A stretch of 37,836 nt of DNA from a virus. The stretch covers positions 7,276 through 45,111 of the IMG/VR virus record IMGVR_UViG_3300030393_000001. One strand, written 5' to 3'. Both the position numbers and the translations under genes were made by a program. Positions 14,631-36,104 of this stretch are shown here, one piece after another. The notes below the pieces were generated by a model. It was not told the DNA's origin. It worked only from the letters and a program-made list of their open reading frames with translations, and did not search any database. Position 1 is the stretch's first letter; the number at the start of each line of letters is the position of its first letter.

Positions 14631-17111
14631 TCACCCGAAAAAATACTTTGAACTCAGAACCTTACGTAGGTCTAGCGTTCCGCGCTCCGGTGTGTCGTCT
14701 AACTCTAGGCCAGTCGTGGCCTCAAGCGCTGTCTTGAAGTCGTGTAGCACGTCGTGATCGGTGTGCAGTTTTACGAACTGTTCTCGAATTATGCGCTGCC
14801 AATCGTCTATGTGGCAGGCGTGCGTGCCGAAGTCGTCGTGGATCATCGCGAAATCTTCGATACCCTCTGCGACGCCCGCGTTGACGCACATCATAAGGTG
14901 AGTGGCGTCGGTGTCGTGCACTAGGTTAGGACTGCTGCCCTGTCGCTGTTTCCGGCTGTCGATCTCGTCTATCTCAACACGCACATTAAGTCGCATACGG
15001 GCACCGCCGATCCGGCTGTCCACGCGCACCACGTCGTTCTTGCGTGAACCCTGATATACCGGGAAACCCAACGGGCTGGTGTACATAAGGGGCATGCCCT
15101 CTTTAGCCACCGTACCCGATACCTTCTGGATCCAGTCCATGGCGGTTCGGGCCGCAACTACAACCTCGCCTATGCTCTCCCACAAGATGGACGACATGAA
15201 TATGCAGTGCTTGAAATTCGTGCCCTCGGGGAAGTGGTCGGTTTGCTGCTCCAAATACCAGCTGAATAGGCTAGCCGTACACGCCTGCTGAGTAGATCCG
15301 TACGGCAGGGTCATCACAGGCTTCTTAGACGCTTTGCGCGGCATGCCGTCGTAGCCTAATCTCTTAAAGAGGCTTAGCCAGTTGGCGGCGGCGACGCGGC
15401 GTCCAGCCTCTTTTTCATCAGCTGCTGGTCCCGTGGCGATAGCTCTGAGCTTGCGAGTTGCAACATCGGCGACGTCTTGATAGATGTCAGACGGTGCATC
15501 AGCAGGTAGGAGGTTAACTGCTCGACCTCCAACAGGATCGCGTAGCATTGCGGAGAAGTGCTGCAAGCCATTACAGCTTCCATCAAGAGCGATAGGAAGT
15601 CGTGATCTGAAAGTAGGCCCGTATTCCATAGCCCCAGCGTACTCGAAACAAAAAGCGAGGAACTGGAACGGCTTATCGGCGCTTTTCCAAGCGTCTCTGT
15701 TGCCCACTGGGTCCGCTGCGGCGGCAAGCCATTGATCTCGTCGTGCATCAATCCAAGCAACGCGTTCATCATAGCTGCACTTGTCCTCGCCGAACTTGTT
15801 CGCTCCATGGACCTTGAGCCAGTAGATACCGCGCTCTCCGATGGGCTTGGCCCGAGCGAACTCCAAGCATCCCTTTGCAGGGTCGCTACCTTGTGGACTG
15901 ACGCCAGCTGTTGCTGCATATAGTCGCGCTCGGAAGTCGAGTTGGTAGACATAGTAGAACTCCTTGTGTTCTTTAAGCATTTCGCCTATTCGCATAGTGC
16001 GGGATACGCCAAGCACGAGCGACTGTCGATGTTTCTCTAGCGCGTAGGTCTCGCGCGCCTCTGTCTTCCAGTCGTCCAGCCGATCCTTGTCGGCGTCGGA
16101 CAATAGGTCGCCCTTGGTGAACGGGCAGGGCGGCACCTCGTACGGCTGACTGGGCGGCATACCCACGCCAGTATTGCTTAGCCAGACCGCCTGTATCGCT
16201 TCCAGCACGCGCCTGTTAACCCGCCATGGTGTACGCTGTACCGAATTTACAGCGCTCATCACCGGGGCCATATCGGCCTGTGCGAGCAATTCCTCGTGAG
16301 GCTTCCGGCTAAAACCGCGCCGGGTTTTCACTAGTGGCGTGTTAGCCCGCAGTCGGGGAAGGTGATACCCGCCGTTGTACTGTGACACCCAGTCCTCGGG
16401 CTTCATGAGGCAGGGCATTCGGTCGGGCATCATTACGGCTAATGCCTCGTCTGAACTCTCTATCCAGTCTTTTACCTCTTGGGTCGCTCGCAGTACAACT
16501 CGCTGTTTGCGACCCTCGCGGATCGTCTCTTTGTACACCAGATCAGTGGCGTCCAGTGTCAGGCTTAGCAGCAGGCTACCGACGCCTACCATAGTCTCGT
16601 TGTCCCACGCGCGCCACTCGACTTCGTTGCTGCGCATAGAGTGGGTCAATACACGGTGCCTATGGCGGTAGCTCTCCGAGTTCCTGCTGTCCAAGTCGCG
16701 CTGCAATGCACTGAATAGGTCAGGCTTCTCCAACTCGAACTTAGTGAATTTCAGCTCATCCTCCACCATCATACCTATTCGGTGCGACACCTCGACTACC
16801 GCAACATCCTCGTACACCGCTCGCACAATCTCTGATAGCGAGAATAGCGCCACCTTGTCAGGCTCTACGGTAAGGATCAGTTTAGCGTACTTGCTGCTGC
16901 GCCGACGGCCACCGGGCTTGTTTCCTCCACAATAATCCGCGATGAACTCCGAGACCTGCGCTAGGTATCCTTTCAGCAGACGTTTACCGCCGTTAGTGCC
17001 GGTAAAGTCTTTACGCTCTACTGCCCTGTTCTCCTGATTACGGAACCGGGAGACGCCAAAGCTGACCATATTTTGTTCCCAGCTTAGCTGGTCTTGGAGT
17101 TCTACTGTCAC
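14631..17111 (-). CDS. Single-subunit DNA-dependent RNA polymerase, T7 gp1-like
   Basis: The product has 826 residues (T7: 883). Motif A is IALDGSCNGLQHF with the metal-binding aspartate at 510; motif B (KASKKPVMTLPYGS) carries the active lysine at about 597 and tyrosine 604; motif C is IHDDFGTH with aspartate 759. The C-terminus SSKYFFG ends in the conserved Phe-Ala/Gly type foot. The promoter specificity loop should be about residues 683-720 and differs clearly from T7, in line with the different promoter found in this genome. Translation probably starts at GTG 17111, which overlaps the stop of the resolvase gene (GTGA). Unlike in T7, the gene sits at the end of the replication module, not before it. 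Confidence 0.97.
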   Translation of the reverse strand: MTVELQDQLSWEQNMVSFGVSRFRNQENRAVERKDFTGTNGGKRLLKGYLAQVSEFIADYCGGNKPGGRRRSSKYAKLILTVEPDKVALFSLSEIVRAVYEDVAVVEVSHRIGMMVEDELKFTKFELEKPDLFSALQRDLDSRNSESYRHRHRVLTHSMRSNEVEWRAWDNETMVGVGSLLLSLTLDATDLVYKETIREGRKQRVVLRATQEVKDWIESSDEALAVMMPDRMPCLMKPEDWVSQYNGGYHLPRLRANTPLVKTRRGFSRKPHEELLAQADMAPVMSAVNSVQRTPWRVNRRVLEAIQAVWLSNTGVGMPPSQPYEVPPCPFTKGDLLSDADKDRLDDWKTEARETYALEKHRQSLVLGVSRTMRIGEMLKEHKEFYYVYQLDFRARLYAATAGVSPQGSDPAKGCLEFARAKPIGERGIYWLKVHGANKFGEDKCSYDERVAWIDARRDQWLAAAADPVGNRDAWKSADKPFQFLAFCFEYAGAMEYGPTFRSRLPIALDGSCNGLQHFSAMLRDPVGGRAVNLLPADAPSDIYQDVADVATRKLRAIATGPAADEKEAGRRVAAANWLSLFKRLGYDGMPRKASKKPVMTLPYGSTQQACTASLFSWYLEQQTDHFPEGTNFKHCIFMSSILWESIGEVVVAARTAMDWIQKVSGTVAKEGMPLMYTSPLGFPVYQGSRKNDVVRVDSRIGGARMRLNVRVEIDEIDSRKQRQGSSPNLVHDTDATHLMMCVNAGVAEGIEDFAMIHDDFGTHACHIDDWQRIIREQFVKLHTDHDVLHDFKTALEATTGLELDDTPERGTLDLRKVLSSKYFFG

Positions 17112-19873: not shown

Positions 19874-19883
19874 GTGTGTCTCC

Positions 19884-24121: not shown

Positions 24122-24672
24122 GTTTCCTCCTTGCCGTAAAGGCGCATCAATCGGCGCAGTTGCATATCCAGGGCGTCTACTTCGTACCACAGGTTGCGCA
24201 TGGTGCTGTTGTTGTCTACCACGATGTCGGCGTCTTCCTTGGTAAGCTCCATGGACGAGCTGTCCTCGGGCGGCAGGCGACCAGACGCGTCTACCCAGAT
24301 CACGTGGTCGAACAGTCGCCTACCGGCCTCAAACTCGTGCCGGGAGCGCATGCCTACATAAATGTCGGCTTCACTCAACACCCCATGAGCTATGGCATCC
24401 CCGCCGTTGTCTTCGTTGTACCGCTTGAATGCGTCAAACCAGAACTTGCGCCCGCAGCAGCTGATTGTATCGTCGTGGCGGTTCTCGTAGAACCACTTCC
24501 AGTCGCGACCAGCCAAAAATGCGGGCGAGTGCGTCGCTTTTACGCTAGGGTAGATTACGTGTTCCGCGCCCCAGCTAGAGCTAGATCTGAACGACCACCC
24601 ATGGTAGTCGCGCATGATCTCGGCCACAGTGTCTTTTCCGTGACGTCCGTGTCCTATGATAAGTAGCTTCAT
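24106..24672 (-). CDS. P-loop nucleotide kinase, probably deoxynucleoside monophosphate kinase
   Basis: The product has 188 residues. The N-terminal strand and P-loop LLIIGHGRHGKDTVAEIM (GHGRHGKD at 7-14) belong to the GxxxxGKD type seen in T4 gp1-like dNMP kinases. SEADIYVGMRSRHEFEA and FDHVIWVDASGR follow the order expected for this fold, with the lid region after them. It would supply nucleotide diphosphates for phage DNA synthesis. A polynucleotide 5'-kinase is an alternative, given the ligase next to it. The start overlaps the stop of the upstream gene (TAATG). Confidence 0.78.
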   Translation of the reverse strand: MKLLIIGHGRHGKDTVAEIMRDYHGWSFRSSSSWGAEHVIYPSVKATHSPAFLAGRDWKWFYENRHDDTISCCGRKFWFDAFKRYNEDNGGDAIAHGVLSEADIYVGMRSRHEFEAGRRLFDHVIWVDASGRLPPEDSSSMELTKEDADIVVDNNSTMRNLWYEVDALDMQLRRLMRLYGKEETCQEK

Positions 24673-24878
24673 TAGTGTCGCCTCCTTTTAAAAGCGTAGT
24701 CCATTTGCGCCTGCGGCTGGTAGCGTATTAGCCACAGCAACTTGGCGAACCCTACGACTTTGGGGCGTAGTACGATCCACCTAGGACCGCACGACACGCT
24801 GTAGGGAGTTTTCCAGTTTATGTGTCCTTGCCACCAGTTCGCAAAGAAAAGCGGCAAGTACCAGAATAGTTGACGCAT
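24672..24878 (-). CDS. Small aromatic protein of 68 residues, possibly membrane-attached
   Basis: Both ends share a base with neighbouring genes (TAATG). The product begins MRQLFWYLPLFFANWWQGHINW, a hydrophobic and very aromatic segment that could insert in a membrane, and ends with the basic FKRRRH. Not recognised. Confidence 0.65.
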   Translation of the reverse strand: MRQLFWYLPLFFANWWQGHINWKTPYSVSCGPRWIVLRPKVVGFAKLLWLIRYQPQAQMDYAFKRRRH

Positions 24879-24979
24879 TAGTGTCTCCGATACTTAGCCC
24901 CGCAACCGGGACACGTTATGATTTCAGTTGGTTTAGAGGTGAACTTGATCCCGCACCACTGGCACAGGAACGTTATCAT
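24878..24979 (-). CDS. Zinc-ribbon micro-protein of 33 residues
   Basis: ATG at 24979 overlaps the stop of the upstream gene (ATGA). The product has two CxxC pairs, CQWC and CPGC, 14 residues apart, a complete zinc ribbon, and little else. The gene is too short for routine detection, but the spacing of the cysteines and the overlapping starts and stops on both sides support it. Function unknown; binding to nucleic acid or a protein is possible. Confidence 0.75.
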   Translation of the reverse strand: MITFLCQWCGIKFTSKPTEIITCPGCGAKYRRH

Positions 24980-25245
24980 TTCCACTTGTCCATGATGTGC
25001 TTGGTGTAGAACAAGTGAGACGCACCACACCCCAGTGACCCGCCCGCCGCTGCAAACATGAATGTTGCTACGGGGGCGTTGGTGGCCGCTACCACCCACA
25101 CGAACACGAACTGTGTCACGCTAATGATCCACGAGTTAACCATAGCCAGTTTCCAGCGGTCGTCTCTCAGTAGTTTCGAGTTCATCACCAGCGAGAACAC
25201 GGAGGCAAACTGGGCCACAAACACTAGTGGCAGCATCCAATCCAT
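24976..25245 (-). CDS. Small membrane protein, 89 residues, holin candidate
   Basis: The start ATG at 25245 shares a base with the stop of the phosphoesterase gene (TAATG); a GTG at 25257 is an alternative. Three hydrophobic segments are visible: MLPLVFVAQFASVFSLVM, VNSWIISVTQFVFVWVV and APVATFMFAAAGGSLGCGA, with charged loops. Size and topology would suit a holin, and no other holin is visible in the window, but the position inside the replication module speaks against it. Not recognised. Confidence 0.65.
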   Translation of the reverse strand: MDWMLPLVFVAQFASVFSLVMNSKLLRDDRWKLAMVNSWIISVTQFVFVWVVAATNAPVATFMFAAAGGSLGCGASHLFYTKHIMDKWK

Positions 25246-26942
25246 TAGCGCCACCACTTACCCGTGCTAGGATCGTGTGTCAGGATTGCACGCTTGCCAT
25301 TAGGGTACGTCACGATAGAACTGTGGCTCCAGCCGCTCAGTCCTTTGTTGTAGCCCATATCGAGCTTACCCAGAACCCCTGCCGTGTACACACCCTCAAC
25401 GATACCTGCTGAGTGCGTGTGGCCGGTGTTGGCCTTGCCCGCCGTCCGCAGGTTCTTCGGGTTCCCGCGCGCCCCGTTAGGCCCTAGGTGGCCGTGAAGA
25501 CCAGCTTCGATCTTGTCGAGGATCTTATGGCTCTGGTCCTCAAGGATTACCTGTGGTCGTGCACGCACGTCGCCCCGGCCACGCGCCGCGTGACAGCTTT
25601 GCATGATCAGGTTTCGGAACGGGTGATCCAACCCGTACCCCATCGACTTTTGGTGGTTGAGGCGTAACCAGAGTTCTAGGTTAACCGGGTCTGTAAGGGC
25701 GGAACTGTCCGCCAGCCAGTTGTCGACGGCTTGGTCGTGGTTCGATACCACGATATAGCTTTCGCACCAATCCCGGTGTGCGTCGTGCATGAGCCAGTAC
25801 GCGATGTCCTTGAACTCTTGCTCCACGCTGTCAGTCTTGTTGCGGAACATTTCTCGCATGAACTGAAAGTCCTTGCGGTTGTGGTGGTTTCGCGGCATGA
25901 AGTCGATGATGTCGTGGAAGTACTGCTCGCGCGGCATAAGACGGTCCATCATGCCAGCTGGCCCGAAGACCGTCTCGCATACGTCTTCGTCCTTCTTCCA
26001 TCCGTGGATGTCACCGTGCGTTACCGCTTGTACGCGAACATCGTCGAACACTTCTGTCGGTGTAAAGAACCTGTTCAGGTCGTACAGTCCACCCTGCTGG
26101 TCGAAGTTAAGTTGACGTGCCCACCAATTGTTGTTCTCGTCTACTTCAACGAGAAGTGCGCCAAACACATGGTGGAAGTCTGCCTTCTGGCCCGCTGTCT
26201 TCTGGATGTAGTTACGTTGCGTGATAGCGCCAGTGGTGTACATGAATTTAGCCGGATCGTGCTTCATAGTTGGCACGCTCTCCATGGCTAGCTTGACGTG
26301 CGGGATAATGCAACTGGCCTGCCGCGTGTGGTTCTGGAACCCGGTGGTCGGGTTAACCGCCGTAGGCAGTATGTTCAGTGACCCGAGCCATACCAAGTCG
26401 TCAGTGATCTGGATGTCCGTGTTTGACACGTACTGTTCGATCTCGGGGGCGTATGCCAACTGGTCGTCATCAGTGGACTTGCCAGAACCTGGCTTGATTG
26501 ACTTCGATCCGTACGCACCCTTGTTATAGGTGAACTGGCTGACGTGCAGTTCGGCATCGTAGTAGTCTACCAGATTTAGCAGAGTTTTCCACATGTCGTC
26601 TGGAATGAGATCGGTGTTGTTCTGCGCGCAAGTGAACACGAACGTGCGTGTGCCTGAGCCACCATCTTCGCGCCGCTGCGCCGGGTCTTCCATCGTCCCT
26701 TGCGACAGCGGCAGCTCGGGCTGAGGGAAATCGACTTGGCCAGTACCGTAGCGCTCTGCCATAGTTAGCGCCTTGAACAAGGTGCGTGCTTCGTGGATGC
26801 GTCGGCGGTGCCGACCGGGGTTCTTCCCGGTGTACGGGAACTCCTGCTCTATCTCGTGCGGACTTGGAATAGTCTGCGACGCACGCCAAGTGTCGTGCAG
26901 GAAGCTGTGTATCATCTTCTTGGTAGTGTACTTCTTACCCAC
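25245..26942 (-). CDS. Calcineurin-like metallophosphoesterase
   Basis: The product has 565 residues from GTG 26942. Residues 1-50 are basic and may bind DNA (helix-turn-helix-like IPSPHEIEQEF). The part from about 98 (TRTFVFTCAQNNTDLIPDDMW) resembles a domain found with this enzyme in marine podophages. The metal-binding motifs follow: GDIHG at 310-314, SNHD at 400-403 (asparagine and histidine kept), LHGHLG near 482 and GHTH at 507-510. This is the family of SbcD/Mre11 nucleases and bacterial Pnkp phosphatase domains. In T5 a phosphoesterase-type protein, A1, takes part in DNA transfer and host DNA breakdown; a similar role is possible. Confidence 0.8.
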   Translation of the reverse strand: MGKKYTTKKMIHSFLHDTWRASQTIPSPHEIEQEFPYTGKNPGRHRRRIHEARTLFKALTMAERYGTGQVDFPQPELPLSQGTMEDPAQRREDGGSGTRTFVFTCAQNNTDLIPDDMWKTLLNLVDYYDAELHVSQFTYNKGAYGSKSIKPGSGKSTDDDQLAYAPEIEQYVSNTDIQITDDLVWLGSLNILPTAVNPTTGFQNHTRQASCIIPHVKLAMESVPTMKHDPAKFMYTTGAITQRNYIQKTAGQKADFHHVFGALLVEVDENNNWWARQLNFDQQGGLYDLNRFFTPTEVFDDVRVQAVTHGDIHGWKKDEDVCETVFGPAGMMDRLMPREQYFHDIIDFMPRNHHNRKDFQFMREMFRNKTDSVEQEFKDIAYWLMHDAHRDWCESYIVVSNHDQAVDNWLADSSALTDPVNLELWLRLNHQKSMGYGLDHPFRNLIMQSCHAARGRGDVRARPQVILEDQSHKILDKIEAGLHGHLGPNGARGNPKNLRTAGKANTGHTHSAGIVEGVYTAGVLGKLDMGYNKGLSGWSHSSIVTYPNGKRAILTHDPSTGKWWR

Positions 26943-26943
26943 T

Positions 26944-27048
26944 TCAAAATCCTTCTGCTGCGGCTATAAAGCCCGTTAGTTCACAGGTTAGTGGCCAGAT
27001 ACTCGCGGAGATCGACCAGCATTGTTGCAATAGGAACAGTGTCTCCAT
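26944..27048 (-). CDS. Possible micro-protein of 34 residues
   Basis: ATG at 27048 overlaps the stop of the 48-residue gene upstream (TGATG), and the stop lies just before the phosphoesterase start. The product (METLFLLQQCWSISASIW...) is mildly hydrophobic. The only support is coupling and tight fit; the stretch may instead be a non-coding spacer. Confidence 0.3.
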   Translation of the reverse strand: METLFLLQQCWSISASIWPLTCELTGFIAAAEGF

Positions 27049-27194
27049 CACTTAAATTCCTCCCTCACGATGTGCTTGCAGCGCACGCACATTCTGGCAG
27101 GCCACTTGACGCCGTTGCTGTAGTACAGCTGGCGGAACCAATGAATGCCACAGTCGCATAGGATCTTTCCGATAGCTTCTCTAATCTTCTGCAT
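27048..27194 (-). CDS. Small cysteine-pair protein of 48 residues
   Basis: The start at 27194 lies inside the end of the helicase gene (14-base overlap). The product MQKIREAIGKILCDCGIHWF... carries CDC and CVRC pairs about 21 residues apart, a zinc ribbon-like arrangement. It is the second small cysteine-pair protein beside the phosphoesterase gene. Function unknown. Confidence 0.65.
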   Translation of the reverse strand: MQKIREAIGKILCDCGIHWFRQLYYSNGVKWPARMCVRCKHIVREEFK

Positions 27195-28461
27195 CTACTT
27201 CTTCCTCGTCCAGCGGGACGTCTTCGAAGCGGGCGATCTCGGGCCGGAACCGCACGCGGGCTTGAGGATCTTGCGGCTTACCGTCTACCCTAAGCTTGTT
27301 TTTGACCACGCCGATGCCACGCACTGACTGCATACCGGGGGCGTTGCTGGTGCCGATCATTATTTGCACGTCGCACGCGCCCTGTTTGCCCGTCTTGCTG
27401 TCTTTCAGCATGGACTGCGCCGGAAATAGGTTGTCGTCGCCTTCCACGCTGATCTGAGACGTACCGATACCAACCACGTCGTACTTGACGCACAGCTCTC
27501 GTGCCCAGTCGTACATCTGTTCTAGAGCCAAATCCGTTCGCGCAGCGTCTTTAAACCCACGAACTTTGTCGATCATGTCGTAAACGACGATACCGGGATG
27601 ATTGGTTTCAATGATGCGCTCAACTGCGTATGTGTCCATACCATGAATGTCGAACACCCTGATACGGTCTCGCATGCCGTTCATAAGCTTGTCGAACATC
27701 GGTGCAAGAGTTCCGTTGCGGTGTGCTTCGATCATGTCGTTAAGTCGCATACCGACAGCGGCTTGCCATAGTCGTTGCTTGATACGCTGGCCCGGTCCCT
27801 CGTTGTTCAACCAGACCAGAGTTAGCTCTCCCGGCAGCTGCTCTGCCATGTACGTAAGCTCTCCGGCTAACAGCGTAGTCTTGCCCCGGTCAGGACGACC
27901 TGCCACGATTATGAAGTCACCGCCACGAACCGGACGCATGCACTCGTTCAAGCAGTCCAAACGCCACTTGTACCCGAACCCCGATTCCTCTTGAGTTAGC
28001 AGGTCGCCGATGTCGTCGCGGATAAAATCAATACCTGTGATCTTGGCGTCACGCTTGTGTTCGTCAAACAGGTCAGTCAACTGCCCGTGCAGGTTTTCAA
28101 CTTCCCCCTCTTCAAACGCCAACAGCAAAGTAGACACCGCAGACGACAATCTGATCTCCAGCATGTTCTCTAGGATAGTGTCTTTGTTTGCTTCGGGTAC
28201 GTCTGCCTTCATCTTAGCGAGTACACCCGCGTAAGAGTCTAGGGCTTCTTTTTTCAGGTTGCTGTGCCACGCGCGAAACAATGTTGTGAACACTGCTACG
28301 TCGATGCTGTCATGCTCAGGGAATTTCTTAAAGTACTTCTCGAAATCTCCCAAGATGACGCGTGTCTTTTCCTCTAGCGCCGCCTCTGGCACACGACCCC
28401 TCACTTTGAAGAAGTCGTCCCGGTGTTTTAGGATGCGCAGTATCTGTAGGTCAACTGCCAT
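27181..28461 (-). CDS. Replicative DNA helicase, DnaB/T7 gp4 C-terminal type
   Basis: The product has 426 residues from ATG 28461, which has a perfect GGAGAG; an upstream TTG is not needed. Walker A is VAGRPDRGKT (188-195 GRPDRGKT), Walker B is GIVVYDMIDK (aspartate 295), and the arginine-finger region lies toward the C-terminus. The first 170 residues form a helical domain without primase motifs. The enzyme unwinds DNA ahead of the polymerase. In T7 primase and helicase are one protein; here they are separate genes with a small gene between. Confidence 0.93.
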   Translation of the reverse strand: MAVDLQILRILKHRDDFFKVRGRVPEAALEEKTRVILGDFEKYFKKFPEHDSIDVAVFTTLFRAWHSNLKKEALDSYAGVLAKMKADVPEANKDTILENMLEIRLSSAVSTLLLAFEEGEVENLHGQLTDLFDEHKRDAKITGIDFIRDDIGDLLTQEESGFGYKWRLDCLNECMRPVRGGDFIIVAGRPDRGKTTLLAGELTYMAEQLPGELTLVWLNNEGPGQRIKQRLWQAAVGMRLNDMIEAHRNGTLAPMFDKLMNGMRDRIRVFDIHGMDTYAVERIIETNHPGIVVYDMIDKVRGFKDAARTDLALEQMYDWARELCVKYDVVGIGTSQISVEGDDNLFPAQSMLKDSKTGKQGACDVQIMIGTSNAPGMQSVRGIGVVKNKLRVDGKPQDPQARVRFRPEIARFEDVPLDEEEVDAED

Positions 28462-28744
28462 TAATTCTCTCCAGTCGAGCGTCAATTATCCCTAACGCTT
28501 CTTTTTGTGTGAGTACCAGCCGTTCCTCTAGTCTTGCTTTGCGGTTCAAAACCACCAGCTCCGCTTCATACCCTTGCGAACTCTGGAACCCAAGGAACCT
28601 ATTTTCCTTGGGCGACTGCTGTGGGTCTATCATACGACGGAGGTCGATAAGCTCTTCTTCCTCTTTCGCCTTTCGTAGTACCGCGTCGGCTCGTTTCTTT
28701 ATTTCCGCGTACTCGTCAAGCACTTTTTGATCAGCTGCGTTCAT
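28451..28744 (-). CDS. Coiled-coil protein between primase and helicase, unknown
   Basis: The product has 97 residues with long charged helices (EYAEIKKRADAVLRKAKEEEELIDLRRM and LVVLNRKARLEERLVLTQKEALG). Its start overlaps the primase stop (ATGA) and its end overlaps the helicase start by 11 bases. It could bridge the split primase and helicase; this is inference from position only. Confidence 0.75.
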   Translation of the reverse strand: MNAADQKVLDEYAEIKKRADAVLRKAKEEEELIDLRRMIDPQQSPKENRFLGFQSSQGYEAELVVLNRKARLEERLVLTQKEALGIIDARLERINGS

Positions 28745-29541
28745 GCTAAAGCCTCCTGTATGTAGGATGAAATTTCTTCGCGAGTGTGGTACTTTGGGTC
28801 TCGTTCACTACGCACTATGACTATGCGCTCTTCTCGCAGCGCCATGGCCTTTCGCAAGTTGCGATTGCCGATCTCTCCGCCAGCGTCGGGGTCTAGCCAC
28901 GACACCAGCACGCTACAGTCACGCAGAAGCGTGTCTAGCATCTTGTCGTCGAAGCTTGTACCCATAGTAGCCCCTGTTCGAAATCCAGCATCCGACACCC
29001 GTACAGCTGACAGTATGTCCTCTACAACTACAGCAAAGCGCTCGCCACTACCACTAGTAGTGCTATCGCCCCCAATCCAATAATCGTCGCTGGCTGCGGT
29101 AGCGACGTACTTTGGCCTGCCTTTCTGGCCCGTAAGATCGCGGCCTGTTCCTGCGCCCGTTGGTGTGCCGTCAACTTCACAGCGCAGGAAGAAGCGGTTG
29201 TGTCGCGCAGACCAACCCCATCCAAGCTGCTCTGCTCTGGAAACCGAGATACCAGCTTTACCGAGCCACACGAGCACGTCACTAGGCCACTCAGAGGGTG
29301 CAGAAAGATCGGGCACCCGCCGCATTCCGCGCACGTCGCTATCTGCTTTTCGCCACTCCGCGAGTTGCTTTGCGGTGACTGGTCCGTGTGGCTCAAACTC
29401 TTTGTATCCGCACCGGAGGCACGGGCCGATGCGAATACCGGCAGTGGAGTTCGAAACATAGGTGGATCTGTCCGACGAGCAACACTCAACTTTCCTGCTC
29501 CCGCCGAATGGCAGCGAGCGCGCCAGTGCTTGCCAAGACAT
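28741..29541 (-). CDS. DNA primase, TOPRIM type (T7 gp4 N-terminal part)
   Basis: The product has 266 residues. An N-terminal zinc site is suggested by KVECCSSD and CLRCGYKE. The TOPRIM domain follows: FAVVVEDILSAVRVS with the catalytic glutamate, and SWLDPDAGG with the DxD metal pair. It makes RNA primers for the lagging strand. It is about the size of the primase half of T7 gp4. The start overlaps the upstream gene by 56 bases, more than the other overlaps here, so a slightly later start cannot be excluded, though it would cost part of the zinc site. Confidence 0.88.
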   Translation of the reverse strand: MSWQALARSLPFGGSRKVECCSSDRSTYVSNSTAGIRIGPCLRCGYKEFEPHGPVTAKQLAEWRKADSDVRGMRRVPDLSAPSEWPSDVLVWLGKAGISVSRAEQLGWGWSARHNRFFLRCEVDGTPTGAGTGRDLTGQKGRPKYVATAASDDYWIGGDSTTSGSGERFAVVVEDILSAVRVSDAGFRTGATMGTSFDDKMLDTLLRDCSVLVSWLDPDAGGEIGNRNLRKAMALREERIVIVRSERDPKYHTREEISSYIQEALA

Positions 29542-29827
29542 CGTAACCGTCCTTGTAGTAGAAGAATGTACCCCCCTCGCGCACAGCCACGAAGGTAGGG
29601 TCGAAGTCGTCCAGCAAAGTCACAGCCGTGCTGTCCGCCGTAGCGCAGCGGGCCACGGCGGCGCGGTGCTTAAAGGTCGACCCTTTCGGGCTAAGTACAA
29701 CAGCGTGGAAGTCTTGACAGTGGTGCATGTCAGCCCACGCGATGCATTTCAAATTCCGCCATGAGGTACTTTCAGTAGCCCCCTTCACGGCGGTCATAAA
29801 CATCATACTTTCGTGTTCACGTTTCAT
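29486..29827 (-). CDS. Protein of 113 residues, unknown
   Basis: The ATG is preceded by AAGGAGA, which lies inside the last codons of the Clp-like gene. The product is soluble with a mixed composition (MKREHESMMFMTAVKGATESTSW..., ending ALAAIRREQES) and no motif I recognise. It overlaps the primase gene at its end. Confidence 0.65.
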   Translation of the reverse strand: MKREHESMMFMTAVKGATESTSWRNLKCIAWADMHHCQDFHAVVLSPKGSTFKHRAAVARCATADSTAVTLLDDFDPTFVAVREGGTFFYYKDGYDVLASTGALAAIRREQES

Positions 29828-29829
29828 AC

Positions 29830-30333
29830 CTAGTTCTCCTTACACAGAGGCACACCGAACGCGCGGTGCAGTTCAGAACCACGCACCCGAATGAAGCCGT
29901 AGCCCCACTTGTACACGGCACCTGAGCGCACGAACCAGTTCCCCAGTCCCGGTACGTGCTTGTTGTACCAATCACGCATGAGTTCCCGGTGGAACTTCTC
30001 TTTCTCGGCGTCAGTCATTTTCACAGGGATAGCGGCTAGCGCCATAGTCACCACGGACCACCCAGACGACGGGCCATGGAACATGAACAGTGTGTTTGGC
30101 GCAACGCAAGAGCGCTCCTTGCTCAAGTACAGTGTGCACGAGCTGGCGCACACGGGCACGCTAATGCGAACGTCACGACCGAGAGTCCACTGGCGCTCTG
30201 CGCGCCGTGCGAATGCCGCTAGGCGTCCACCACCCATTTCGAACACGTTTACTGGGTGCTGCGGGCGCTCAGGTGCCGCTGCTGCACTTGTGGCTGTAAG
30301 CCCAGCCAGTAGAATTGCGAGTACTTTAAACAT
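29830..30333 (-). CDS. Exported Clp/crotonase-fold protein
   Basis: The product has 167 residues. A clear signal peptide (MFKVLAILLAGLTATSAAAA, cleavage after about residue 20) sends it to the periplasm. The mature part has the run VCASSCTLYLSKERSCVAPN and then FMFHGPSS, as in bacterial periplasmic proteins of the ClpP/crotonase fold, where the serine in the CxSxC run (64 or 65) would be the nucleophile and His86 is nearby. Two cysteine pairs (62/66 and 76) could form a disulfide. I know such proteins mainly from alphaproteobacteria. A lytic phage could use it to act on the cell envelope, on a defence protein or in lysis; all three are inference. Good AAAGGAAA before the ATG. Confidence 0.7.
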   Translation of the reverse strand: MFKVLAILLAGLTATSAAAAPERPQHPVNVFEMGGGRLAAFARRAERQWTLGRDVRISVPVCASSCTLYLSKERSCVAPNTLFMFHGPSSGWSVVTMALAAIPVKMTDAEKEKFHRELMRDWYNKHVPGLGNWFVRSGAVYKWGYGFIRVRGSELHRAFGVPLCKEN

Positions 30334-30363
30334 AGAGTTTCCTTTCGAGGTTTACCTGTGAGA

Positions 30364-30379
30364 CAGGGCCGAAGCCCTG
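30364..30379 (-). terminator. Stem-loop CAGGGC-UUCG-GCCCTG behind the 120-residue gene
   Basis: A perfect 6-bp stem closes on a TTCG tetraloop in the transcript, one of the most stable loops. It lies between the stop at 30406 and the start at 30333. No T-run follows, so it may protect or process mRNA rather than terminate. Confidence 0.5.
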
Positions 30380-30405
30380 CCTACCAAATGAACCTGGGTA
30401 CAGTA

Positions 30406-30768
30406 TCAGCCGAGGTCGTCTGCGAGCGGATCGACGTCTTCTTCGTCGGCGGTTTCGTCTGCTTCAACTTCGGCGTCGGCCAGAGCGTACGACTGGCGCG
30501 TGACTTTCTTCAAGGTGCCCTGCTCGATAGCGGCCTTGATGTAGGTACGGACAGTCGCGGCAGCGGGCAGGTCAACAGAGGTACGGATAGCGACGACAGC
30601 AAGTTGGGCGATGGTCAAAGTGGTTGCACCAGCAGCGGCACCGGCAACGAACATGGCGACAACAGCGTCAATCTTGTCTTGGTTCGAGTTCGCTACTTTC
30701 TTGGCCAGCTCGGGGTTGGTTTCGGCGATGTCGGACAGGTCTGCGAAGTCGAATGGATTCTTGGTCAT
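30406..30768 (-). CDS. Early protein of 120 residues with an acidic tail, unknown
   Basis: AGGAGAAA precedes the ATG. The product has an Ala/Val-rich centre (AVVAMFVAGAAAGATTLTIAQLAVVAIRT), a part that could be a winged-helix (TVRTYIKAAIEQGTLKKVTRQSY), and a highly acidic end (ADETADEEDVDPLADDLG). It stands alone between two stem-loops, which suggests separately processed and possibly abundant mRNA. An acidic tail is common in DNA mimics and ssDNA-binding accessory proteins, but no function can be assigned. Confidence 0.75.
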   Translation of the reverse strand: MTKNPFDFADLSDIAETNPELAKKVANSNQDKIDAVVAMFVAGAAAGATTLTIAQLAVVAIRTSVDLPAAATVRTYIKAAIEQGTLKKVTRQSYALADAEVEADETADEEDVDPLADDLG

Positions 30769-30812
30769 GTGTTTCTCCTAGAGATCTTTGTTAAGTTCGA
30801 TGTAAAGCACAT

Positions 30813-30838
30813 CATAAAGGGCACCGCCGGGATGCCCT
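30813..30838 (-). terminator. Weak intrinsic terminator, AGGGCA/TGCCCT stem
   Basis: AGGGCA (transcript, from 30838) pairs with TGCCCT (ending 30818) around an 8-9 base GC-rich loop, followed by TTATGATG. It starts a few bases after the stop codon at 30843. The T-tract is short, so it probably terminates partially. Confidence 0.5.
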
Positions 30839-30842
30839 CAAG

Positions 30843-31112
30843 TCATGCTTTGGCCCGCATGAGCTTCTTGTAGGCTTTCATGCCCGCTTTGATGACGTCC
30901 AGCGGGATAGGCACTATTGATGTGGGCGACCAGCGGTCTGGCGTGCGACTACTGCCCCGCGTACTGCTGAACCACTTGAACAGCTTTACACCTTTTTCGT
31001 TGACCACACACCGATACTCCCGGCGACCGCAAGTAAAATCCACAAACACGGAAGCCACTGTAGCTGATCGTGCGGCCTGCGCTTCTTGCACAGTAACTTT
31101 GAAGCCAGTCAT
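30843..31112 (-). CDS. Early protein of 89 residues, unknown
   Basis: ATG overlaps the stop of the gene upstream (ATGA). The product (MTGFKVTVQEAQAARSATVASVF...) has a beta-rich middle (VFVDFTCGRREYRCVVNEKGVKLFKWF) and a basic C-terminal helix (DVIKAGMKAYKKLMRAKA). Not recognised. A stem-loop follows directly. Confidence 0.7.
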   Translation of the reverse strand: MTGFKVTVQEAQAARSATVASVFVDFTCGRREYRCVVNEKGVKLFKWFSSTRGSSRTPDRWSPTSIVPIPLDVIKAGMKAYKKLMRAKA

Positions 31113-31315
31113 GGGCGATGCCCCTTAAACAGTCGCGGCGCAAGCACACTGCTTGATCGCCGAGGACGTCGCTCGGGCGTACCGCGCATTGCGTGCGGTG
31201 CCTTGTAGTCCAGCCTAACAACTCCCTCGTCTTGGGTTGCCCGTTTTCCGACAGCGAACATTGCGTCTAGTGTTCGCTGTAAGAAGTTGCTCTTCAATAG
31301 TGCTTTAATGCCCAT
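31109..31315 (-). CDS. Small basic early protein of 68 residues, unknown
   Basis: The product (MGIKALLKSNFLQRTLDAMFAVGKRATQDEG...) is basic, with a C-terminal part rich in arginine and proline (GTPERRPRRSSSVLAPRLFKGHRP) that looks unstructured. It starts two bases after the stop of the exported small protein. No motif recognised. Confidence 0.65.
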   Translation of the reverse strand: MGIKALLKSNFLQRTLDAMFAVGKRATQDEGVVRLDYKAPHAMRGTPERRPRRSSSVLAPRLFKGHRP

Positions 31316-31317
31316 GT

Positions 31318-31569
31318 TTAGGTCTCCCGATAAATTCGTGTTTCGCCCGATGCAAACATGCAGGAACGGAAAGCTGTGTCCGGCTCAGTGTACGTGATTG
31401 TGTACGACCCGTCGTCGTAGTCATACCAAAATCGCCACGCGGTGCCGTCGTCGTCAACAAACTGACTTATTACTTCCTCGCCGTGATTGGACAGTCCCAT
31501 CATTGCGCCGGGGGTTGACCCACAGTTGCTGCTAGCCGCTAGAAGCAGGGCAGCTGCTACGATGCTCAT
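31318..31569 (-). CDS. Small exported protein of 83 residues
   Basis: The start is ATG 31569, overlapping the upstream stop (ATGA); a longer form would lose the clean signal peptide. MSIVAAALLLAASSNCGS is a signal sequence with a cysteine after it, but SSNC is not a proper lipobox. The mature part is acidic with many Tyr and Trp (DGTAWRFWYDYDDGSYTITY) and one more cysteine. It could be a periplasmic factor or outer spanin-like protein; neither is shown. Confidence 0.65.
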   Translation of the reverse strand: MSIVAAALLLAASSNCGSTPGAMMGLSNHGEEVISQFVDDDGTAWRFWYDYDDGSYTITYTEPDTAFRSCMFASGETRIYRET

Positions 31570-32192
31570 TGCACACCATACTGCGTGGATAGCCAATCGT
31601 GAGTGCTGCGCAGTTGGTCCGCGTGGCGCTTCCAGCCGGTAGGACAGTCTGCCTTGCCTGCGTAGGCTTTGTGCAGCAGGTCGTGTGCGGCGTGAAGAGA
31701 GTGCATACGACTGGATACCTCTTGACGTGTACGGTCACTCGGCCAGCCCTGCGGTGGCGGCGCGGTGTCAGGGTTGCCCTCGGCCACGACCCAGTACATC
31801 TTAGTGGATGGGTTGTAAGTGAAGTCAACCCCGTCCTCAACAGCGGAAGTTGACCGCAGCGAACCTAGGTTCTTGAGTTGCATACCGTCCACGAGGTGCA
31901 AATAGAACAGAGCCGCGTACTGTTTGTTACACTCGGAAACGAGCATAACGCTTTCGTTGTTGCTCATGAAATCCGCGCCAGCGGTCTCATAAAAGGCGTT
32001 GAACGCGTCAACGGTGGTCATCCACGAGTATTCAACTTGGCCCTTGTACTTGCCGATCATAGTCTGCAAGACAACGCCGGGATTGATCTGTCGGAACGCT
32101 TCCTTCATGAAGTGCACAAACATCGGATTGTTTTGTCGGTCAATTGAGAACAACACGTACTTGAACCCAAGACCGCTTGAAATAACGTTCAT
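31566..32192 (-). CDS. Early protein of 208 residues, unknown
   Basis: The largest of the early group. The N-terminal half is mixed alpha/beta (FKYVLFSIDRQNNPMFVHFMKEAFRQ...VEYSWMTTVDAFNAFYETAG), the C-terminal half ends in a His/Ser-rich helical stretch. ATGA overlaps at both ends. It contains no motif I recognise. Position among early genes suggests a role in host takeover or counter-defence. Confidence 0.75.
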   Translation of the reverse strand: MNVISSGLGFKYVLFSIDRQNNPMFVHFMKEAFRQINPGVVLQTMIGKYKGQVEYSWMTTVDAFNAFYETAGADFMSNNESVMLVSECNKQYAALFYLHLVDGMQLKNLGSLRSTSAVEDGVDFTYNPSTKMYWVVAEGNPDTAPPPQGWPSDRTRQEVSSRMHSLHAAHDLLHKAYAGKADCPTGWKRHADQLRSTHDWLSTQYGVQ

Positions 32193-32347
32193 TTCATAAC
32201 TCCTTCTCGGCGCACCCAGCGCCCGTTAACTTGCACCCACTCAGCGCGGGCCTTGATAGAACACACTGCCATAAGGAAGGCGTCCTCTTTGCATCCACGC
32301 TCTCTCGCGGATCGTGCTGCTACTGCGTACTGGTCGGGATCAAACAT
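32189..32347 (-). CDS. Small early protein of 52 residues
   Basis: ATG 32347 with GAGG upstream, eight-base overlap with the gene before and ATGA with the gene after. The product (MFDPDQYAVAARSARERGCKEDAF...) is a helical, charged protein with WVQVNGRWVRREG at the end. Unknown. Confidence 0.65.
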   Translation of the reverse strand: MFDPDQYAVAARSARERGCKEDAFLMAVCSIKARAEWVQVNGRWVRREGVMK

Positions 32348-32579
32348 CGGGTGCCTCCGCGAACTCGAACCGGGAAAGGTGGCACATATACGGCCCGTAC
32401 CTGCCCTCCACTTCCACGAATGGCCGCGAGGTGAAAATACCCTCCTCCACGCGATTAGCAGTATAAACTGCGCCAAACTCCAATTCCGGCACGTTTCGCG
32501 TACCTATTGCGACCAGCTTTGTACCCGGTGCAACGAAGTGCATCTGGCTGTGTTCAATGCACTGACTTACATATCCCAT
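32340..32579 (-). CDS. Small early protein of 79 residues
   Basis: The product appears to be a small beta-barrel type: FVAPGTKLVAIGTRNVPELEFGAVYTANRVEEG and PFVEVEGRYGPYMCHLSRFEF. The strand pattern resembles SH3-like barrels, and the next protein upstream (32567-32971) has a related pattern (AGRVYTMWCLKGVNRVQ...RFKLVED). Overlaps both neighbours. Function unknown. Confidence 0.7.
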   Translation of the reverse strand: MGYVSQCIEHSQMHFVAPGTKLVAIGTRNVPELEFGAVYTANRVEEGIFTSRPFVEVEGRYGPYMCHLSRFEFAEAPDV

Positions 32580-32971
32580 GTGTCACTCCAATCGTCGCAC
32601 GGGTCGCCTATCTGGTAGCATTTATGCGCACCGTACATGCTCGCCATGCCTATGGTCTTGTGCAGGACACTCTCCCAGCCGGACCACAAGAAAGGGTCGT
32701 GCGGATCATCCTCCACTAGTTTGAACCGAGCTGACGCTACGCGCCATGACCCGTCGTCACACTGCACACGATTGACGCCTTTGAGGCACCACATTGTGTA
32801 CACACGACCTGCTGTGAATGAGAACATGTCCATGCTACACTTGCACCGAACTAGGCACGTCTCACCCTCCGCTAGTCGGATGTCGTCTGCGTAGAACGAT
32901 CGGCCTGTGCGGCTAAACCCTGTTGTAGTTCTAACCACAGGGCCTCCACGTCTTGCTCGGTCAAAGCCCAT
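32567..32971 (-). CDS. Early protein of 134 residues, unknown
   Basis: The start overlaps the upstream stop by 11 bases. The first 30 residues are basic. The middle (FSFTAGRVYTMWCLKGVNRVQCDDGSWRVASARFKLVEDD) has the same layout of strands as the 79-residue neighbour, with the shared feature F-(T/A)-x-G-x-VYT, so the two could be related small barrels. The end is acidic (CDDWSDTWDM). Six cysteines. No function assigned. Confidence 0.65.
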   Translation of the reverse strand: MGFDRARRGGPVVRTTTGFSRTGRSFYADDIRLAEGETCLVRCKCSMDMFSFTAGRVYTMWCLKGVNRVQCDDGSWRVASARFKLVEDDPHDPFLWSGWESVLHKTIGMASMYGAHKCYQIGDPCDDWSDTWDM

Positions 32972-33155
32972 ATTTCACCACGTCTTTCTCGGTGACGCGA
33001 GACCAGCCGTCCGCCGTCTTGAAGCGTACGCCGTATCCCACAAGCGCCTGACGCTTGTGCACTTCAAACCAAGAGGCTTCCAGCATAATGAAGCGCAGGC
33101 GCTCCGCTGACCGTGCGGCCTTATCCCGCGATACGAATAGTGCATGTTCACTCAT
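32961..33155 (-). CDS. Small early protein of 64 residues
   Basis: A TAGGAG ribosome binding site precedes the ATG. The product (MSEHALFVSRDKAARSAERLRFIMLEASWFEV...) has a basic helix and a short strand region ending DGWSRVTEKDVVKYGL. Unknown. Confidence 0.65.
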   Translation of the reverse strand: MSEHALFVSRDKAARSAERLRFIMLEASWFEVHKRQALVGYGVRFKTADGWSRVTEKDVVKYGL

Positions 33156-33170
33156 TGCCCGGCTCCTAAG

Positions 33171-33245
33171 CTAGAGTTTCGTTAGACCCACTGCCACAGT
33201 AAAAGCGACGAGGGCCACTAAAAACAGTACCATGTCGGGTGCCAT
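33171..33245 (-). CDS. Membrane micro-peptide of 24 residues (twin 1)
   Basis: ATG 33245 shares a base with the stop of the upstream gene (TAATG). The product is a single hydrophobic helix, MAPDMVLFLVALVAFTVAVG plus LTKL. It shares VAFTVAV with the 22-residue peptide at 33823-33891. Coupled start, absence of other coding content and the match between the two peptides support it as real. Confidence 0.6.
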   Translation of the reverse strand: MAPDMVLFLVALVAFTVAVGLTKL

Positions 33246-33433
33246 TAGACACGCTTAACCGTCACGGACTCGGACACTTCCGAGTAATCCAGGTCGCCGC
33301 GATCCATCAAGCCTACTTCGATACGCGTCACTGCGACGAGCATGTTATGGCGACCAAACACATGTAGTGTTTCGCGCTTGTTGCCGGGACGAGTGGTCTG
33401 GATTGCCCACAGTTCATTTTCAAAGGTAGTCAT
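33245..33433 (-). CDS. Small early protein of 62 residues
   Basis: The product (MTTFENELWAIQTTRPGNKRETLHVFGRHNML...) has alternating strands and ends in SEVSESVTVKRV. A weak AAAGA lies before the ATG. The stop overlaps the start of the 24-residue peptide. Unknown. Confidence 0.65.
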   Translation of the reverse strand: MTTFENELWAIQTTRPGNKRETLHVFGRHNMLVAVTRIEVGLMDRGDLDYSEVSESVTVKRV

Positions 33434-33468
33434 AGCGTTATCTTTCGATGAGGGAAGGGGGGTACGAG

Positions 33469-33792
33469 TTACACGTACGGAGCTTGGTTATAGATCCACT
33501 GTCCGTCAGCCGTGAACTCGCTTTTTGGGTCTTTAGTGCGCTTACGCTTGTCAACGAAACGCGACAGATACTGCAAACCTGTCATAAGTACAGCCATCAT
33601 TAGACCCGCCATGATGGCCACTAGGAGGCCTGTTAGAGTACCAGCGAATGCTACTGCCATAGCGACAGTGAATGTCACGTCTACCAGTGTTGCATGCTTG
33701 ATCATGCGCTTGATGCCGAACACCCGCGCACCTGTAACGAGTACAGCAGCGACAGTGGCGGCAGACGCGCCGAGTATGAAACCAATGGCCAC
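33469..33792 (-). CDS. Early membrane protein of 107 residues
   Basis: GTG start at 33792 behind AGGAGG. Three hydrophobic segments: IGFILGASAATVAAVLVTGA, LVDVTFTVAMAVAFAGTLTG and LLVAIMAGLMMAVLMTGL, then a basic cytoplasmic tail (SRFVDKRKRTKDPKSEF). It lies between the two micro-peptides and contains a similar TFTVAMAVAFAG stretch. It may form a complex with them, for example acting on the inner membrane or in superinfection exclusion; this is inference. Confidence 0.7.
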   Translation of the reverse strand: MAIGFILGASAATVAAVLVTGARVFGIKRMIKHATLVDVTFTVAMAVAFAGTLTGLLVAIMAGLMMAVLMTGLQYLSRFVDKRKRTKDPKSEFTADGQWIYNQAPYV

Positions 33793-33822
33793 AGTACGGC
33801 CTCCTATTGTTGTGTGAAGCGG

Positions 33823-33891
33823 CTAGTAGTACGCCAGCAGAAGTAGCACGGCCACTGTAAAGGCCACGCCTATTGCAAAACCTAGGATCAT
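33823..33891 (-). CDS. Membrane micro-peptide of 22 residues (twin 2)
   Basis: ATG 33891 overlaps the stop of the first early gene (ATGA). The product is one hydrophobic helix, MILGFAIGVAFTVAVLLLLA plus YY. VAFTVAV is shared with the peptide at 33171-33245. No ribosome binding site of its own is obvious, so it probably depends on coupled translation. Confidence 0.6.
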   Translation of the reverse strand: MILGFAIGVAFTVAVLLLLAYY

Positions 33892-34436
33892 ACCGGCTCG
33901 CCTTGCTCCAGCGGATCTGCGTCTTCCTTGACCAACGAGCGCAGAGCGGCCAGCTGATCTGGGTCGATGCTGTCTTCTGCGTTGTGCTTGGCGGCGCGCT
34001 TGTCAATCTTGGACACAAACGCCTTAAGCAGCACGTTGAGGCTTACAGGCGCAGGATCTGGCTCTGGTGTGGCGTTGAACCAGAAAGTCTTGGCCACTGC
34101 CAAGTCAGCCAACTCAAAGCCCTTGGCCTTCGCCTTGTTGGCGTGGAACATATGGGCGTTGTCACCTTCTGTGATGTACTCAAACCCGAGGTTTGTCTCA
34201 ACCCACGCCACGATGGCGTTGCGGCGCACGCCCTTGAAAAGTTGTTTCTTGTCCACCAGCATGTTGATACGCTTGACCGCAGGACGCACGTCGCCCGTCT
34301 CTTTCCAGCGCGTGGCAACGGCGTGCAAGTACAGTTGGATGTCCATCTGCAACGCCTTGCCGCGAGTGTTGATGTCAGCCACAGCCAGCGCAAAGCTGTC
34401 GTCGCTATCAGTCTTGTTCAGTGCATTATAGTCCAT
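33888..34436 (-). CDS. First early gene, protein of 182 residues, unknown
   Basis: GGAGAG before the ATG, and a stem-loop (34453-34466) just upstream. It is the first gene transcribed after the terminus region, the place of gp0.3 in T7, which blocks host restriction. The product is helical (MDYNALNKTDSDDSFALAVADINTRG..., KRINMLVDKKQLFKGVRRNAIVAWVETNLGFEYI) with an acidic end (VKEDADPLEQGEPV). It does not resemble gp0.3 by sequence. An early counter-defence or host-control role is inferred only from position. Confidence 0.8.
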   Translation of the reverse strand: MDYNALNKTDSDDSFALAVADINTRGKALQMDIQLYLHAVATRWKETGDVRPAVKRINMLVDKKQLFKGVRRNAIVAWVETNLGFEYITEGDNAHMFHANKAKAKGFELADLAVAKTFWFNATPEPDPAPVSLNVLLKAFVSKIDKRAAKHNAEDSIDPDQLAALRSLVKEDADPLEQGEPV

Positions 34437-34452
34437 AGTGCTCTCCAGTTGT

Positions 34453-34466
34453 TAGGCGAACGCCTA
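34453..34466 (-). promoter_or_regulatory. Leader hairpin upstream of the first early gene (TAGGCG/CGCCTA)
   Basis: A perfect 6-bp inverted repeat with two bases between, located a few bases before the GGAGAG of the 182-residue gene. The same stem, one base pair longer and with a 7-base loop, precedes the tail tube A gene at 10089-10109. Likely an mRNA end or processing element. Confidence 0.45.
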
Positions 34467-35335
34467 GCCCGGTTATCCCGTCAAGCTAGACGCTCTGTGA
34501 TTGACACATTGCTGCACTACGCGTCCTATTTGCTACCCTAGTCCGACCAGTGGGCCCACCGTCATATAGCGGGTACGTTCGTGAGGTAGTGCAGACGGGT
34601 ATCAACCCGTAGTATTGTGGCAACTCCTACTTGCTCGCTATTGGATACAGAAGTGGCGATGCCTACTAGCCTCGTGTAGAAGCTATTCAAACTCGTCGTT
34701 TGCGGCAAGTGACTATGCGTCTATGTGGCCGCTATGGCTTATAATCGTTTCAATTGGTCCTCCTGATGTAGTTGAAAAGATGCAGAGGGTAGAGAGAACC
34801 GCGTTCGGCCAGCCTGCGTCTCTACTCGCAAGCCCTACTAGGAGGTCTGATCTCTGCACCTATTCAACCACACCACACGCGGCCCATGTTGCTAATACAG
34901 GCCACGCATAGCGTGAGTTGTTCGCACCTATAACTTAGTGGCGTTTCAGTCGCATGAGTACACAGTAACCGCCCGTCTAAAGATTGTAAGCGGGATGCCG
35001 TGGCTTGCGCGACTGAGGCCCGTTAAGCCTAGTCTAGTGCTTGGTCCCCGTGCATTCGCTAGTATGCTCTTCGGATACGAGAACCCGTAGCTGCTTTTAC
35101 AAGGCGGCAGGCCGTAGGGCTGCTTAAACGCAATCAACCCCTAGCTCTTGCCAATCATCCCAAGCCCGATGCCCACTCTTTCAGAGGCACGCTGACTTGG
35201 ACAGCAATCCTTGACGACGTGTTCACCATCCGGTGACTTGTGTCGCTATGAGCACTTAGCGGCGTTTCCCGCATTCAGCTAGTCTAAGGTGCCAGCTACC
35301 CAACATCCGGCCAGTGCCTCCGGTGTCGCCTTGTT

Positions 35336-35364
35336 AGCTTAGTTTCTAGGGTTTAAGCTGTCAA
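35336..35364 (-). promoter_or_regulatory. Possible host sigma-70 promoter (early)
   Basis: On the coding strand TTGACA (35364-35359) is followed after 17 bases by TAAGCT (35341-35336). The -35 box is perfect and the spacing ideal, but the -10 box keeps only TAnnnT. The layout repeats at 35600-35628. Confidence 0.4.
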
Positions 35365-35599
35365 CCCCCCTATTTCGTGGCCGGTCATCGGCCTAAGCAT
35401 GTTATAGACTATGCGTGTCTAAGTCAGGGAATAGGTACGCTTTACAGCCTTTGTGAGCCTACAACGCTCAACCTAACCCTTGCACCCTTACAGGCGATAA
35501 CGAGCGGTATTCAATTCCCCGCTTAACCAGCTAGTTTGCTTGGTGCTAGCCACCCACCAGACAAGAGGGCTTTCGCTCAGTCCGTCTGGAATTGTCTTT

Positions 35600-35628
35600 A
35601 GCCTAGGTTACTCAGTTCAGGCTGTCAA
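35600..35628 (-). promoter_or_regulatory. Possible host sigma-70 promoter (early), second copy
   Basis: TTGACA (35628-35623) and, 17 bases on, TAGGCT (35605-35600). It shares TTGACAGCyT and the TARGCT box with the copy at 35336-35364. Tandem strong host promoters ahead of the early genes are known from T7 (A1, A2, A3). Confidence 0.4.
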
Positions 35629-35753
35629 CTGTCTTTCTATCCGGCTCTTGCTTGCTACCGTGGCTCTTATCGGTCTACGTGCTCTGGAGCTAATCCCGTG
35701 GGGTTGCTACCGTCTGCTGCGTTGTTCCGTGATTAGAGTTATAGGCTTACTAG

Positions 35754-35967: not shown

Positions 35968-35973
35968 CCGTCC

Positions 35974-36001: not shown

Positions 36002-36035
36002 AGGCCCCGTAACAATCATCACATCCGGCTTTTAT

Positions 36036-36055: not shown

Positions 36056-36104
36056 ATGCCAGCCCTAGCCCTTGGTGTATCCCAGCCCGTCACCCTGTGC
36101 AAAA

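Follow-up and report, generated by a model that had tools for sequence, protein, structure and literature searches.

A phage-encoded, predicted exported ClpP-fold protein and the exopolysaccharide neighbourhood of its cellular relatives

The closest described system to the phage protein analysed here is the ClpP proteolytic subunit (Pfam PF00574), which we take to be peptidase family S14 and whose catalytic serine and histidine are Ser111 and His136 (E. coli precursor numbering). Periplasmic ClpP-like proteins of the SPGG type, presumably COG3904-like, offer a second comparison; neither the ClpP fold nor the occurrence of ClpP relatives in phages is new. PHROG 19619 is a phage family without function, and depositors have used the names 'signal peptide protein' or 'putative secreted protein' for proteins of Sinorhizobium phages phiM7, phiM19 and phiN3, Rhizobium phage Paso, Nostoc phage NMeng1 and Agrobacterium phage OLIVR1. 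A passage of PMC12419801 concerns a different secreted ClpP-like protease, and no paper naming the protein described here was found in the open-access PMC literature on the phage name, the family or the polysaccharide link.

The protein under study, P0001 (167 aa), is encoded on the minus strand at 29830-30333 of the window, the whole stretch of 37,836 nucleotides that was analysed, corresponding to positions 7276-45111 of a 45,111-base virus record. P0001 is like ClpP in its fold and in the register of its GG, Ser and His residues, but differs in its predicted export, its richness in cysteine, and the lack of a conserved catalytic acid and of a Pfam match. The SPGG-type proteins are weak profile matches to the family and carry an SPGG (or comparable GG) motif, CxSAC and GFH, whereas they are without the third cysteine and, unlike the P0001 family, often lie in longer open frames. 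The phage proteins deposited as signal peptide or secreted proteins have the C-x-S-x-C...C...H core in common with P0001 and are of similar size, but they are distant in sequence, occupy other genome positions and have no fold or role in their records. The polysaccharide loci of Rhodobacterales encode hypothetical secreted proteins, such as WP_114963968.1 of Tritonibacter mobilis (33% identity with P0001 in the 11-sequence alignment A1, invariant core kept), that are cellular, unlike P0001, and whose genes adjoin those for a Wzc-like autokinase, a WbaP-like sugar transferase, sugar-nucleotide enzymes and a metallophosphoesterase. Beyond PHROG 19619, the family of P0001 now has links with both the ClpP fold and polysaccharide loci; what appears to be new is a cysteine-rich branch, predicted to be exported and lacking a conserved acid, common to several phage groups and tied to roseobacter polysaccharide loci.

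The gene, its genome and its N-terminus

The P0001 gene is real, and a separately deposited "hypothetical protein", ANS06208.1 of KX397280.1, has a CDS 100% identical to it over 167 aa; the open reading frame runs MFKVLAILLAGLTATSAAAAPERP...CASSCTLYLSKERSCVAPNTLFMFHGPSS...VPLCKEN*. Window bases 20000-36882 have 100% identity with Phage MedPE-SWcel-C56 (KX397280.1), classified in its record as Kafavirus SWcelC56, Autographiviridae. PMC4916215 describes MedPE-SWcel-C56 from a marine enrichment metagenome, relates it to lytic phages of Rhizobium etli and notes that Pseudorhodobacter antarcticus has a prophage in synteny with it; the passages found there on the phage do not mention P0001.

The genes run in the order 120-aa gene, P0001 gene, 113-aa gene, primase and helicase (Table 1), and the location just before the replication genes, given in the initial annotation, was confirmed. 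Only 2 nt separate the P0001 stop from the start of the 113-aa ORF, whose own AGGAG lies within the final codons of P0001. No match to the PF00589 integrase was found in the phage which, together with the single-subunit RNA polymerase, fits a lytic podovirus; the earlier assignment as such agrees with this podovirus-type genome. In KX397280.1 the primase, helicase and RNA polymerase (window 14631-29541) are each described merely as "hypothetical protein".

Table 1. Features of the P0001 locus (window coordinates).
Feature	Position	Strand	Basis
P0001 gene, predicted exported protein with modelled ClpP-type fold, 167 aa	29830..30333	(-)	ORF; identical CDS ANS06208.1 in KX397280.1
Signal-peptide-like segment, residues 1-20 of P0001 (MFKVLAILLAGLTATSAAAA)	30274..30333	(-)	rule-based scan
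Ribosome-binding-site-like AAGGAAA, 5-11 nt upstream of P0001 ATG	30338..30344	(-)	sequence
Gly35-Gly36, near-invariant in A3	30226..30231	(-)	hhalign: on ClpP Gly81-Gly82
C62-A-S64-S-C66-T67; Ser64 on ClpP catalytic Ser	30133..30150	(-)	A3 + hhalign
Cys76, invariant	30106..30108	(-)	A3, 65/65
F85-H86-G-P-S89; His86 on ClpP catalytic His	30067..30081	(-)	A3 + hhalign
Cys164, Cys in 98% of A3 rows	29842..29844	(-)	A3
113-aa ORF, immediately downstream of P0001	29486..29827	(-)	no Pfam or PHROG match
120-aa gene upstream of P0001, one edge of variable slot	30406..30768	(-)	conserved in G025, ParMal1, ParKuw1
DNA primase, other edge of variable slot	28741..29541	(-)	phrog_47, E 1.1e-21
DnaB-like helicase	27181..28485	(-)	phrog_19, E 3.4e-69
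Phage-type single-subunit RNA polymerase, Autographiviridae context	14631..17111	(-)	phrog_414, E 6.6e-272

The first 20 residues of P0001 begin with basic residues, continue into a hydrophobic core and end rich in Ala. A custom-made export rule (basic n-region, hydrophobic core, small residues at -3/-1) was passed by P0001 alone among the 38 complete annotated CDSs of KX397280 1-27050, two CDSs truncated at the ends of this segment being excluded, and the signal peptide noted earlier is signal-like by this rule. The same rule was passed by 171 of 2000 whole-protein shuffles of P0001, so it is loose and only suggestive. With any start codon allowed, 22/26 viral and 66/79 genome loci of the family pass. 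Judged from its sequence, P0001 is likely to be exported. An exported phage protein had been regarded as unusual, which now seems less so given relatives in several other alphaproteobacterial phages.

Sequence family, fold and candidate active site

A scan of IMG/VR with P0001 alone retrieved no relative, and profile patterns were needed to reach relatives. Profile A1 (11 sequences) yielded 26 IMG/VR loci out of 57 pattern matches, while a narrower profile gave 143 relatives out of 156 pattern matches in genome contigs, with 79 loci retained; tblastn gave 13 plasmid records with relatives (12 records from Rhodobacterales genera and one from Sinorhizobium; strongest E 2e-8). The alignment A3 has 65 rows, chosen against redundancy: P0001 itself, all but one of the 26 viral loci (25 rows) and 39 rows from the 79 genome loci. 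The family is patchy, being found in 28/149 genomes drawn from one family, 8/289 from a class draw and 18/299 from a phylum draw, where the draws overlap and some genomes occur more than once.

Seven residues (C62, S64, C66, T67, C76, F85 and H86) are invariant in all 65 rows of A3, part of which is a selection effect because the collection scans were searched with FGFHGPS or CxSxCT patterns. CxSxC is nevertheless present in 42 of 43 loci retrieved for the most part with BLAST or a profile, a set that includes the GenBank twin of P0001 and some loci that the patterns had picked up as well; 34 of the 43 have the full C-S-C...C...H pattern and the other nine still show the Ser and a later His. 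The run CASSCT...C...FHGPSS, singled out in the initial annotation, is no chance occurrence. P0001 is ~35% identical to its nearest relatives and has all the features of the PHROG 19619-like family (GG, CxSxCT, the third Cys, FH and the C-terminal Cys); its own match to PHROG 19619 has an E of 0.013, and 64/65 members of A3 match that family at E<=0.01. At the same threshold, between 3 and 6 of the 65 members also match three further PHROGs of ClpP or protease type. Searches with P0001 matched no Pfam family at E<=10 and no NCBIfam family, and PF00574 was not among the Pfam families matched by A3 members.

The AF2 model of P0001, built with A3, has a pLDDT of 84.2 and a pTM of 0.75. Foldseek against the PDB returned 284 matches at E<=10, seven of them at E<=0.001; the 50 listed are all ClpP by title, with a best TM-score over the query of 0.58. 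Structural alignment with VIA-align gave Z of 10.3-10.9 for the 50 listed entries, each likewise titled ClpP, the top Z extending over 129 residues. Against viral models, the best named non-self match was the secreted protein of Paso, and many ClpP-type proteases rank below it. Comparison of A3 with a five-sequence ClpP alignment by hhalign gave 94.9% probability (E 4.3e-8) and aligned S64 with the invariant Ser111, H86 with His136 and G35-G36 with G81-G82 (E. coli precursor numbering). PDB sequence searches gave chance-level matches only, and RPN11-like phmmer matches (E about 0.5) were dismissed as chance. A ClpP-type fold is thus well supported by modelling and profile comparison. Of the ClpP/crotonase fold proposed earlier, the ClpP half holds; crotonase titles number 0 among the 50 listed of the 284 PDB matches, a count that excludes nothing. 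Likewise, of the two serines proposed for mutation, Ser64 is a credible candidate together with His86, whereas Ser65 is not conserved in A3.

The hhalign alignment stops short of the Asp region of ClpP, and A3 has no conserved acid after H86, where the best column is 78% D/E and is Lys in P0001. Column 33 is 92% D/E, but Met in P0001. Since A3 is without a conserved acidic column after H86, a Ser-His dyad or some other third residue is likely.

Genomic context in cells and in phages

On annotated plasmids, most relatives adjoin polysaccharide genes. A tblastn survey was run with nine families: Wzc-like autokinase, WbaP-like transferase, UDP-glucose dehydrogenase, GMP-PMI, YjbH, RfbA, RfbB, RfbD and polysaccharide export; its query proteins were taken from target loci and the family names come partly from plasmid annotation. 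At least one of the nine lay within ~6 kb in 19 of 24 cellular loci (those with sampled genomes) against 1 of 40 control stretches of approximately equal size from the same genomes (Fisher p 8.7e-11), the control coordinates being hand-picked and not confined to plasmids, and rhizobial-type relatives standing outside the count. At least one family was nearby in 55/79 genome loci and 8/10 plasmid loci; the remaining 24/79 genome loci, some on short stretches, had none of the nine. The homology search for cellular relatives proposed in the initial annotation led mostly to Rhodobacterales, and the exopolysaccharide neighbourhood, which had not been foreseen, is new here and favours a role in surface polysaccharide. 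Of the 26 viral loci, none has such genes nearby, so the polysaccharide link comes from the cellular relatives only.

Two further observations were made at the cellular loci. A calcineurin-type phosphoesterase is near 32/79 genome loci against 0/40 controls, usually ~70 bases downstream (e.g. L062:4362-5135), and is possibly a partner of the cellular relatives. Genes for exosortase E/VPEID-CTERM are near 7/79 genome loci and also stand at L006:994-2622. A phage metallophosphoesterase near the phiM19 relative was compared with that of the roseobacters, and kinship between the two is not convincing (E 0.033 over 31 residues).

Among named phages, relatives occur in OLIVR1 (Agrobacterium), Paso, NMeng1, phiM7, phiM12, phiM19, phiN3 and BDU-MI-1, and the phage relatives span Autographiviridae, Schitoviridae and Emdodecavirus. 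In a quick tree, which has long branches and is without bootstrap, P0001 clusters with the proteins of two phage contigs, L014 and L015 (SH-aLRT 97), within a mostly phage cluster and not with roseobacter proteins; its function may accordingly have drifted. A recent capture of the gene from a roseobacter is unsupported by this tree and, the nearest relatives being phage-contig proteins, the gene does not fix the host, contrary to the host-lineage information that had been expected of it. Upstream of the relative in L014 is a thymidylate synthase. Immediately downstream of this nearest viral relative, at L014:1246-1503, is a thioredoxin/glutaredoxin-like ORF (WCGPC read from sequence), which fits a disulfide-dependent exported protein. 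Among 85 neighbour ORFs of the viral loci, no PHROG was seen more than four times, and endolysin families gave one match (25 families listed of 125). A search of 15 records with A3 found the gene in three (this phage's record, its GenBank twin and Paso) and not in the other 12. Lacking a fixed neighbourhood, the phage relatives point to an accessory gene.

The slot between the 120-aa gene and the primase (window 29542-30405) is syntenic in L182, L174 and L175, where sisters tend toward exported, membrane and lysis proteins. It holds a 73-aa signal-like protein in G025 and an 'ATPase' and a membrane protein in ParMal1 and ParKuw1, their export or membrane character being read from the sequences. 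In SI01, Paso, RHEph27 and RHph_X3_9 a lysozyme-type gene stands directly before the primase and the 120-aa gene was not found there. As sister phages carry differing exported, membrane and lysis genes at this place, the slot is both variable and rich in envelope genes.

The lysis pair of the phage lies at G000:1131-2169 (-) (locus L186), within the first 2.2 kb of the record and outside the window. It consists of a GH19-like endolysin (PF00182, E 0.0018, a weak match below cut-off), whose homologues in ParKuw1 and ParMal1 carry endolysin annotation, and an adjoining GTA-type holin with 3TM (PF11351, E 2.4e-14). In the early region, a membrane-type ORF at window 33469-33792 (-) is weakly like the annotated Paso holin (E 0.001) and is possibly a second holin by its sequence.

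Proposed role and alternative explanations

We propose, at a probability of about 0.42, that P0001 is an accessory periplasmic Ser-His hydrolase acting on the surface-polysaccharide machinery of the host. P0001 would be made from the early region together with the replication genes, exported to the periplasm and oxidised there, its three invariant and one nearly invariant cysteines probably forming two disulfides. It would fold as a ClpP monomer and place the Ser64-His86 pair over a Gly35-Gly36 oxyanion loop, most likely acting as a serine hydrolase on a bond in the periplasmic part of the polysaccharide machinery or in its product. The cell surface might then be altered, for example so that other phages are kept out or host aggregates are loosened. 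The computed part of this proposal comprises the gene, its homology, fold and residue register, the polysaccharide neighbourhood of the cellular relatives and the accessory distribution in phages. Because Rhodobacterales members of the family are tied to exopolysaccharide or surface-polysaccharide loci, the phage copy most likely acts on that machinery.

The same ClpP fold and Ser/His register would also suit a periplasmic protease directed against an envelope protein unrelated to polysaccharide, such as a receptor, a stress sensor or a membrane-based defence protein, and the polysaccharide link of the cellular relatives would then be irrelevant to the phage copy. The placement of P0001 in a phage-only subgroup and the lack of polysaccharide genes near phage relatives speak for such a protease, yet the catalytic acid is not found in A3, and the setting of the cellular branch is clear and of another kind; we regard it as a serious but rather unlikely possibility. 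The missing acid, including the loss in P0001 of the column-33 residue, could instead mean a catalytically dead binder or inhibitor that retains only the ClpP scaffold and the disulfides. This is unlikely, as S64 and H86 are invariant throughout A3 and Ser and His persist even in the distant SPGG-type relatives found by profile.

What fills the slot in other phages, the lysozyme-type genes before the primase and the exported or membrane proteins of G025, ParMal1 and ParKuw1, would be compatible with a lysis accessory protein standing in place of the muramidase/SAR endolysin of Stappia and rhizobial relatives. With its own endolysin and holin located elsewhere, the phage is unlikely to need P0001 in an essential lysis role, and Paso has a SAR endolysin and a holin alongside its relative. 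A lysis enzyme was accordingly rejected as the main reading, the earlier suggestion of help with lysis is weakened, and we consider even an accessory part in lysis improbable. Least probable is a neutral passenger without a current role: the gene is missing from the nearest relatives of the phage and the slot is variable, but the core residues are fully kept despite the low identity to the nearest relatives and the gene is tightly packed against the next one. Overall, the interpretation in the initial annotation is partly supported.

Returning to the proposed polysaccharide-directed hydrolase, a bolder extension, which we hold to be doubtful, is that alphaproteobacterial phages share unrecognised exported, disulfide-bonded, Asp-less ClpP-fold hydrolases, kin of an unnamed component of exopolysaccharide loci, and that this phage, by switching off or rewiring polysaccharide export early in infection, controls the adsorption of rival phages. 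The analysis assigns a fold, a hypothesis on the active site and a genomic setting to a family labelled hypothetical, secreted or signal-peptide protein in phages and roseobacters. With bacterial relatives placed among genes of the outer sugar coat, the phage may use P0001 to alter the surface of its host. If the polysaccharide link holds, an uncharacterised gene of marine polysaccharide loci has been named, and a lytic phage would have a way of working from the periplasm on the surface of its host.
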